From positions 1 to 64,000 of the forward strand of contig JAPLRD010000035.1 of NCBI GenBank assembly GCA_026399375.1: 64,000 nt of DNA. Reading direction: 5' to 3'. This document shows, in pieces, positions 9,057-14,289 of the stretch; position 1 is the stretch's first letter, and each line of letters opens with the position of its first letter. Source of the stretch: Pseudomonadota bacterium. GTDB lineage: Bacteria > Pseudomonadota > Gammaproteobacteria > Burkholderiales > SG8-39. The position numbers and the translations under genes are program-made. A model generated the notes under the pieces. It worked only from the letters and a program-made list of their open reading frames with translations. It had not been told where the DNA came from and made no database searches.

Positions 9057-9080
9057 AGCCCCGCCTGAAGCGGCGGGGCT
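9057..9080 (-). other. Intercistronic hairpin between atpA and atpG
   Basis: AGCCCCGCC-TGAAGC-GGCGGGGCT, 9-bp perfect stem, 6-nt loop. Confidence 0.6.
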
Positions 9081-9086
9081 ATTGGA

Positions 9087-10566
9087 TCAGTACGTTCCGT
9101 TCTTCTTGAAGTCCTTGACCGCCTCGTGCAGCATGGCCTCGTCTTCCTTGGTCAGGTCCTTGGTGCTTTCGATCCGCTCCACCAGCGCCGCGTATTTGTC
9201 CTTGCAGAAGGCGCGCAACGCGCGCTCGGCCGCCAACGCCTTGGCGGTATCGATGTCGTCGAAATAGCTGTTGTTCACTGCAAAAAGCGTCAGCGCCATT
9301 TCCCAGACTTGCAGCGGCTCGTACTGCGGCTGCTTCATCAGCTCCGTCACCAAGCGTCCGCGCTCCAACTGCTTCCTGGTGGCTTCGTCGAGGTCGGAGG
9401 CGAACTGGGCAAAGGCCGCCAGTTCGCGATACTGCGCCAATGACAGGCGCACGCCGCCGCCGAGCTTCTTGATCACCTTGGTCTGCGCCGCGCCGCCGAC
9501 GCGCGACACCGAAATGCCGGCGTTGATGGCGGGGCGGATACCGGCGTTGAACAGATCGGTCCGCTTGGGTTTCGATCACCGGCAGCGCGGTGAGCGAACC
9601 GGTCTTGCCCTTGACAGCGCCCTTGGTGAATTTTTCGACGTATTCCGGGTTCACACGTGCGGCGCGCTCGAGCAGGCGCGAATGCAGGTAGAACACGTCG
9701 CCGGGATAGGCTTCGCGGCCCGGCGGGCGGCGCAGCAGCAGCGATACCTGGCGATAGGCCCAGGCCTGTTTGGTCAGATCGTCGTAAATGATCAGCGCGT
9801 CCTGCCCGCGGTCGCGGAAATATTCACCCATGGTGCAGCCGGAGTAGGGTGCGATGTACTGCATCGCCGCCGACTCGGAGGCCGTTGCAGCAACCACGAT
9901 GGTGTAAGCCATGGCGCCGTGCTCTTCCAGCCTGCGAACCACGTTGACCACCGAGGAGGCTTTCTGCCCGATCGCGACATAGACGCAGATCAGGTCCTTG
10001 CCCTTCTGGTTGATGATGGTGTCTATTGCCACCGCGGTCTTGCCGGTCTGGCGGTCGCCGATGATCAGTTCGCGCTGGCCGCGCCCGATGGGCACCATGG
10101 AGTCGATCGCCTTCAACCCGGTCTGCACCGGCTGCGATACCGATTGGCGCTCGATCACGCCCGGGGCGACTTTTTCGATCACGTCCGTAAGCTTGGCATT
10201 GACCGGGCCCTTGCCGTCGATCGGCTGGCCAAGCGAATTGACCACGCGGCCTATGAGTTCAGGTCCTATCGGCACGTCGAGAATGCGGCCGGTGCACTTT
10301 ACCGTGTCGCCTTCGGAGATGTGCTCGTAAGGTCCGAGCACCACCGCGCCGACCGAGTCGCGCTCAAGATTAAGGGCAAGCCCGAAGGTGTTCTTGGGAA
10401 ATTCCAGCATCTCGCCCGCCATCACGTCCGAGAGGCCGTGGATGCGGCAGATGCCGTCGGTCACCGATACGACCGTACCCTGGGTGCGAACGTCCGTGGA
10501 CAGCGCAAGATTCTGGATCTTGCTCTTGATCAGTTCGCTGATCTCGGAAGGATTCAACTGTTGCAT
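9087..10566 (-). pseudogene. atpA: F0F1 ATP synthase subunit alpha, with an internal deletion and frameshift as presented
   Basis: N-terminal ~310 aa in one frame ([25 protein letters not shown]…[13 protein letters not shown]), C-terminal part in another ([34 protein letters not shown]…KNGTY); the block expected between them (like [23 protein letters not shown]) is absent at ~9560. Confidence 0.93.
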
Positions 10567-12883: not shown

Positions 12884-13243
12884 CTACGTCTTTTCGCCAG
12901 CAAACAATGCCATGCTGAAGATCAAGATTGAAACGACAAACGATCCGATCAGCCCGACTATGACGACTTCTTGATAGATCGTCAGAACGAGCCAAAGCAA
13001 CAAAATTGCCAGGAAAAGCTTCGCGCCTTCGGCCTTCAAAGCGACGAGCAGGACCTCCCCCGCGGATCTAATCTTGTTTCCAGCGGTCAGCAGCGCAAAC
13101 ACCAGCCCGGCGGTTATGCTTATCAGACCGCCCAGGATCGCCGAAATCGCGCCGTGAACGCCCGCAAACCAGGCCGCAATGGATGCGATGGTTATGGTGG
13201 CCAGTACTTGCAGCCCGATCACCGGGCGGAACTTTTGCCACAC
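12884..13243 (-). CDS. atpI: ATP synthase subunit I (AtpI-like)
   Basis: 119 aa membrane protein upstream of atpB; GLISITAGLVFALL, LKAEGAKLFLAILLLWLVL. Confidence 0.85.
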   Translation of the reverse strand: MWQKFRPVIGLQVLATITIASIAAWFAGVHGAISAILGGLISITAGLVFALLTAGNKIRSAGEVLLVALKAEGAKLFLAILLLWLVLTIYQEVVIVGLIGSFVVSILIFSMALFAGEKT

Positions 13244-13334
13244 TCGCCACTATCCTCGCTGCAAAACAGTGAAATTATAAGGGCTTTGACCAATCACGGT
13301 CAATTCAGAAATCCACGAACGAGCCTGCAATGCT

Positions 13335-13348
13335 TTGATCCACATCAA
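13335..13348. promoter_or_regulatory. FNR/ANR-type binding site
   Basis: TTGAT-CCAC-ATCAA, exact match to TTGATN4ATCAA, in the divergent atpI / methyltransferase intergenic region. Confidence 0.7.
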
Positions 13349-13497
13349 TATGAACGACTCGAGTTAAAGGTATTTAGCTAGGTCTGGAAACGCGGGCGAT
13401 CGGCCTGGATTAGCTTGATGGCGCGGACGAAAACCGCGATACTGTGCGGTTGCTTCATCAGTCGAATTTCTTTCCTTTTATCGCTTGAGGTAGTGTA

Positions 13498-14289
13498 ATG
13501 AATGCGTGGGTGATGACTGGGGCGTTCGCCCTGTTCTTTCTGCTGGCCTCCACCGGCCTGTTCTTCTTCGTCGTGACCCGGGGGGCGCTGGTTCTACGCG
13601 GGCTTTCCCCAGGCTCACAAAGCGACAAGTCGCACGTGTACCCAATTTACTCGAACATGCGCCTGATCAAAATGGTGGATTTTCAGCCCATCATCTCGGC
13701 CATTCTGCTGTTTCAGTATCACCGCCTGGTCTCCAAGATCGTCGCCGGACTGGAGCAGACGGATCTTCGCAACAAGAAAGTGCTGATTACGTCCTGCGCT
13801 TTCGGCAACGTGATCCCGCGCGTGGTAAAAGCCGCGGTCGGGGCCGGCGCCGAGCGCGTCCTGATCGCCGACATCATTCACAACGAGCTCATTCACGCGA
13901 AAAGCAAACTCGGCGAGTTTTCCGGGAAGGTGGACTACATTGAAGACAATGCGACCTCGATGACGCAAAAGGAAGGCAGTGTCGCCGCCAACGTCATCTT
14001 CTTTCTGCTGCACGAACTACCGCATCACCTGAAGGGCCAGGCGCTCGCTGAGGCCGGACGCATGCTCGCCCCGGGGGGCAAGCTTTACCTGGCCGAGTTT
14101 CACCGGCCGGAACTCTGGGTGCTGCGCGCTCTGAGTTGGACCTATTTCAAGGTGTTCGAGCCGCTCGGCCTCGCGCTTTGGGATACGCACGATCCGCTTG
14201 CCTGCCTGCAAGACATGGGCGGATGGAAGTGCGAGCGCACAACTTACTTCTTCGGCAATTTTCAAATAGTCACCGCGACCAAGTTGTAG
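13498..14289 (+). CDS. RquA-like class I SAM-dependent methyltransferase homolog (candidate rhodoquinone biosynthesis protein) with an N-terminal membrane segment
   Basis: 263 aa; VLITSCAFGN in place of a canonical SAM motif I, FFLLHELP, APGGKLYLAEFHRP, YFKVFEPLGLALWDTHDPL, ERTTYFFGNFQIVTATK; recalled similarity only, not searched. Confidence 0.6.
   Translation: MNAWVMTGAFALFFLLASTGLFFFVVTRGALVLRGLSPGSQSDKSHVYPIYSNMRLIKMVDFQPIISAILLFQYHRLVSKIVAGLEQTDLRNKKVLITSCAFGNVIPRVVKAAVGAGAERVLIADIIHNELIHAKSKLGEFSGKVDYIEDNATSMTQKEGSVAANVIFFLLHELPHHLKGQALAEAGRMLAPGGKLYLAEFHRPELWVLRALSWTYFKVFEPLGLALWDTHDPLACLQDMGGWKCERTTYFFGNFQIVTATKL

Follow-up and report, generated by a model that had tools for sequence, protein, structure and literature searches.

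Does the gene at positions 13498-14289 (plus strand) of the window, by which we mean the whole analysed stretch of 64,000 nucleotides, encode an enzyme of rhodoquinone biosynthesis? RquA makes rhodoquinone from ubiquinone, using SAM and Mn2+. A sequence-only reading of the window had proposed an RquA candidate at this locus, and the open reading frame it described coincides exactly with the coding sequence analysed here, which has an ATG start preceded by a Shine-Dalgarno-like GAGGT (13487-13491, plus strand) and encodes a protein of 263 aa. All the motifs it listed are present: ITSCAFGN (residues 97-104), FFLLHELP (168-175), PGGKLYLAEFHRP (192-204), VFEPLGLALW (219-228) and TTYFFGNFQ (248-256). 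The protein is not RquA as currently defined, since it falls below the equivalog cut-off, belongs to a separate clade with a long stem and has lost 23 of 37 diagnostic residues. The family, here called W, is previously unnamed and highly conserved; a literature search for a second RquA family found no direct report.

To place the protein we compare its profile scores with its position in a maximum-likelihood tree. The best NCBIfam match is the RquA equivalog model NF038261 (109.7 bits, 1.7e-31), and the UbiE models give at most 41.5 bits. The curated cut-off of NF038261 is 175 bits, and the members of W all score below it, at 95-121 bits. In the tree W is a single clade (100/100) whose stem is 3.9 substitutions per site long. 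It lies inside the clade formed by RquA and a divergent group, Z, and is split from UbiE (100/98). It is nested with RquA groups A and B (97/96), but it belongs to neither and forms a clade of its own. Groups A and B are sequences sorted by score and meant to match the groups of Stairs et al. 2018 (PMC5953543), with R. rubrum RquA left unplaced. Due to the long W stem, the exact branching point is unsure.

In the broad sense, then, W is found within the RquA clade and away from UbiE, and a placement outside the RquA clade was not seen. The kinship to RquA that had been proposed holds, given the best profile match and the tree, but the identity as a true RquA does not. Canonical RquA is rejected on the NF038261 cut-off, the tree and the diagnostic residues. 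UbiE/UbiG is rejected on the NCBIfam scores and the tree, and the GxGxG motif I and the placement of UbiE/Coq5 are both absent.

One scan of species genomes returned 159 W relatives, and the 80 that were kept are 67-87% identical. Their hosts are Ramlibacter, Rhodoferax, Polaromonas, Herbaspirillum, Noviherbaspirillum, Methylotenera and Rhodanobacter/Lysobacter-type bins, and some genomes contain two copies. Cultured bacteria with W include Noviherbaspirillum denitrificans TSA40 and Ramlibacter lithotrophicus RBP-1, each of which has an rquA as well. Full-length relatives are present across two classes, Beta- and Gammaproteobacteria, with matches far beyond chance. Orthologues in 15 related genomes are 73-87% identical, the membrane helix included, and fragments were found as well. 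The mean identity within W is 70%, compared with 52-59% within the RquA groups, and W is only 22-24% identical to every RquA group.

The residues that set RquA apart were examined at 37 diagnostic positions, fixed in RquA groups A and B and different in UbiE. Fourteen are kept in W: Y51, L70, K137, F168, L170, H172, E173, P175, H202, P204, E221, W228, T249 and Q256. Several of these lie in recognisable segments. FFLLHELP (13999-14022, plus strand, as are all the segments that follow) is RquA-diagnostic, common to RquA groups A, B and Z and absent from UbiE. AEFHRP (residues 199-204; 14092-14109) contains H202 and P204, common to RquA A/B, and FEPLGLALW (residues 220-228; 14155-14181) contains the RquA-diagnostic E221 and W228. 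The C-terminal TYFFGNFQ (residues 249-256; 14242-14265) has T249 and Q256 as in RquA, with Y255 replaced by F. The other 23 positions are replaced, including the WAY segment, V101A, Q97I, Q130E, Y102F, Y201F and Y255F, so that the losses comprise VYG and one invariant Q of RquA. A further 51 positions are invariant and specific to W.

The SAM-binding region is also non-canonical. Motif I, ITSCAFGN (13786-13809), reads SCAFGN in W, xxCVYG(D/N) in RquA and AGGTGD in UbiE, and W has no GxGxG; C100-A-F-G103 is invariant in 34 sequences. D125 (13870-13872), the equivalent of D118 of RquA, which contacts the SAM ribose (PMC9814641), is invariant (34/34). At N151 (13948-13950), the equivalent of D143, the alignment has N in 27 of 34 sequences and D in 7. 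In RquA the amino group added to the quinone was shown to come from SAM, and the D118A/D143A double mutant is inactive (PMC9814641). W therefore resembles RquA in the non-canonical motif I, FFLLHE-P, the D118 equivalent, HxP, EP..LW and the C-terminal T..Q, and differs from it in the absence of WAY, VYG, Q130, Y201 and Y255 and in the mostly N at D143.

An N-terminal hydrophobic helix had also been reported, as something foreign to RquA, and it is genuine. The Kyte-Doolittle mean over 19 residues reaches 2.29, a single helix is modelled by AlphaFold2 at residues 3-36 (13504-13605, plus strand), and it is kept across the W family. It is indeed not an RquA feature: R. rubrum RquA can do without its first 40 residues (PMC9814641). 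The positive residues that follow, R28 and R34, suggest an N-out orientation, with the catalytic domain predicted to be cytoplasmic. The AlphaFold2 model (mean pLDDT 76) continues with a poorly modelled linker, residues 37-68, and a class I fold like that of RquA. Its best fold match in the PDB is the SAM-bound yeast Coq5 (4obw, E 8e-11), and the Pfam match is PF01209 (Ubie_methyltran, 43.7 bits); a search of the PDB by sequence returned no solved relative. W thus shares fold and Pfam family with the UbiE/Coq5 ubiquinone-menaquinone methyltransferases, but differs from them in motif I, in its far lower scores against the UbiE models and in its separate clade.

The gene is divergent from the ATP synthase gene atpI (12884-13243, minus strand; Pfam ATP-synt_I), as described before, and convergent with parB. 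A meaningful linkage to the ATP synthase is rejected, atp genes being beside W in 0 of 80 fetched loci. Among the neighbours tested, those of the window recur near W in a single one of the 80 loci (L099, a ParA match). A PLSDB plasmid search with W gave 0 matches at a 1e-20 cut-off, so spread by plasmids is not supported, and an Rfam search of the 5' leader matched no RNA element. Two features of the atp genes may be recorded here. A near-consensus sigma-70 promoter for the atp operon, TTGACC-18-TATAAT (11/12; 13274-13303, minus strand), is located between atpI and W. In addition, atpA is split over two overlapping frames (9079-10566 and 9087-9509, minus strand), the N-terminal part in one and the C-terminal part in the other, most likely a frameshift caused by an error of the draft assembly.

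The upstream region of W contains a perfect FNR box, TTGATCCACATCAA (13335-13348), 150 nt 5' of the ATG. No other perfect box occurs in the window, where 0.05 are expected. Of the 80 regions upstream of W genes, 22 contain a box with at most one mismatch, as do 13 of the 467 regions upstream of other genes at these loci (p 9e-12); with at most two mismatches the counts are 54/80 and 78/467 (p 2e-19). On this conserved box, W fits the description of an FNR-regulated gene of anaerobic respiration. A candidate -10 element of weak sequence, TATTTA (13371-13376, plus strand), lies 32 bp from the box, centre to centre, and would place the transcription start at about 13383. This is the class II (-41.5) spacing and suggests direct activation by FNR at this locus; among W relatives the spacing from box to promoter varies. 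By reading the sequence we also noted a second promoter-like pair, TTGATG-17-GATACT (13415-13443, plus strand), which does not appear in the promoter scan output and recurs upstream of W in the close relatives L070 and L073. Elsewhere in the source genome, a perfect FNR box is present at frdA, and the box at rquA deviates by one mismatch.

In several genomes W is linked to fumarate reductase, as RquA is known to be near complex II genes (PMC5953543). It is directly upstream of the frd genes on the same strand at three loci (L085, L089, L095) and directly downstream of frdABCD, again on the same strand, at three others (L107, L135, L141); the order at L141 is ETF-QO, frdABCD, W, etfBA. At L071 and L078 W is followed by a true rquA and then by convergent frd genes. 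The six genomes with W beside frdABCD have an E. coli-type FrdA (898-967 bits), and neither RquA over the cut-off nor MenD or Mqn was detected in them. Several other W genomes have no E. coli-type FrdA.

As a control, 15 genomes of the same order with an E. coli-type FrdA have no RquA, W, MenD or convincing Mqn (G005, G022, G039, G041, G050, G057, G065, G073, G082, G083, G236, G338, G388, G410, G416). The few PF02621 matches in them score 20-35 bits and seem to be noise, not MqnA/D. Either the fumarate reductase of these bacteria uses ubiquinone, or another enzyme for a low-potential quinone goes unrecognised in them. The presence of frd alone is therefore no proof that a low-potential quinone is needed, which weakens this as a hard argument.

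A true RquA is encoded elsewhere in the source genome, on contig C333, and is 29% identical to the W protein. It scores 266 bits over the 203 aa that were matched and 305.6 bits at full length. The source genome is 86% complete and 6.8% contaminated. Three close relatives (G018, G013, G014) carry both genes, with an rquA very similar to the one on C333 (phmmer 455-466 bits), and both genes are therefore probably native. Consequently, the rhodoquinone capacity of this organism does not depend on the W gene. The link that the earlier reading drew to fumarate-based anaerobic respiration is independently supported by the frdABCD operons and the FNR boxes. In a test of 50 W genomes, RquA exceeds the cut-off in 32, one has a partial match and 17 have no candidate; the six in which W adjoins frdABCD are all among these 17. 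Gene absences are weak evidence, since the majority of W genomes are draft MAGs; G049, which is 97% complete, has W and FrdA, and RquA was not found in it. Multiple copies also occur: one MAG (G523, the record of L076 and L100) contains three true RquA and two W genes, which could reflect either mixed binning or a genuine expansion, and G500 and G295 have two RquA each.

The FNR switch and the fumarate reductase neighbours in bacteria lacking RquA indicate that W probably makes or modifies a quinone for anaerobic life. The reading we prefer, to which we give an even chance, is that W is an FNR-controlled, membrane-anchored, SAM-dependent relative of RquA that modifies ubiquinone for fumarate-linked respiration. 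At low oxygen FNR would turn the gene on. The cytoplasmic UbiE/Coq5-type domain would then bind SAM, and its substrate would be membrane ubiquinone, in which a methoxy would most likely be swapped for an amino group as in RquA. The product would be rhodoquinone or a closely related low-potential quinone, feeding the E. coli-type fumarate reductase. Where RquA is missing, the enzyme would do this job alone; where RquA is present, as in the source genome, W would be a second enzyme with a deployment of its own. Against this reading are the 23 replacements and the mostly N at D143, a residue that matters in RquA when it and D118 are both mutated. The presence of a true RquA in two thirds of the tested W genomes is a redundancy that needs explaining.

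Given the altered active site, the product could be a new quinone, and the very long stem suggests a changed reaction. W could thus be a new SAM-dependent quinone-tailoring enzyme whose product, a low-potential quinone undescribed in Proteobacteria, serves fumarate reductase, and is made beside or from rhodoquinone where RquA is present. We regard this as rather unlikely.

The frequent company of RquA raises the idea that W is its accessory subunit or partner, for instance a catalytically altered paralogue that fixes RquA to the membrane or activates it there, or else an enzyme that modifies rhodoquinone in a second step. RquA over the cut-off is found in 36 of 399 genomes of the order sample, far below the 32 of 50 among W genomes. 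In a family sample of 98 genomes it is present in 12 of 17 W genomes and 10 of 81 others (p 3e-6; for W and FrdA p 2e-5, by Fisher tests that ignore relatedness). W adjoins rquA in two genomes, its active-site residues are altered, and both genes have FNR boxes in the source genome. A partner should not stay beside frd after the loss of RquA, and the 17 W genomes without an RquA candidate, with the six frd-linked ones among them, as well as G049, disfavour the idea. It is in our view unlikely.

It is also doubtful, and a little more so, that W is some other anaerobic membrane enzyme dependent on SAM, such as a quinone C- or O-methyltransferase or a lipid methyltransferase, linked to frd only by shared FNR control. 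The 51 invariant positions and the long stem would agree with a new specificity, the best fold match is a methyltransferase, and E. coli-type FrdA is missing from several hosts. Nevertheless, motif I is not GxGxG, the RquA-type signature of FFLLHE, H and EP..LW is kept, and the adjacency to frd arose in at least three arrangements.

The Z group consists of divergent RquA relatives (L220-L239, L241-L243; families f79, from the phylum sample, f24 and f10). It straddles the NF038261 cut-off at 155-186 bits, and one member is near frdA (G467). Many Z sequences have N at the D143 position, and their FFDHQPIINAILFGQY is close to VDFQPIISAILLFQY of W; they differ in keeping WAY and VYG, in lacking H202 and Q256 and in forming their own clade (99/86). 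That W is nothing more than an RquA that evolved fast, to be added to A and B as another group and missed by too narrow a model, would fit such scores around the cut-off and the clade and operon partners shared with RquA. It is very improbable, as W scores clearly below Z and is 22-24% identical to every RquA group; moreover, no group is more conserved internally than W, which would not be expected of an RquA in decay or under relaxed constraint.

Like RquA, the W family is found with complex II genes and in a low-oxygen setting, and it adds a membrane helix and, in most tested genomes, occurs alongside a true RquA. A second family on the same scaffold, membrane-anchored, with an altered active site and frd operons of its own, is a natural comparison for the mechanism of RquA. 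Surveys of quinone repertoires by RquA models would miss W or risk labelling it as RquA. W may explain fumarate respiration in bacteria that have neither RquA nor menaquinone.
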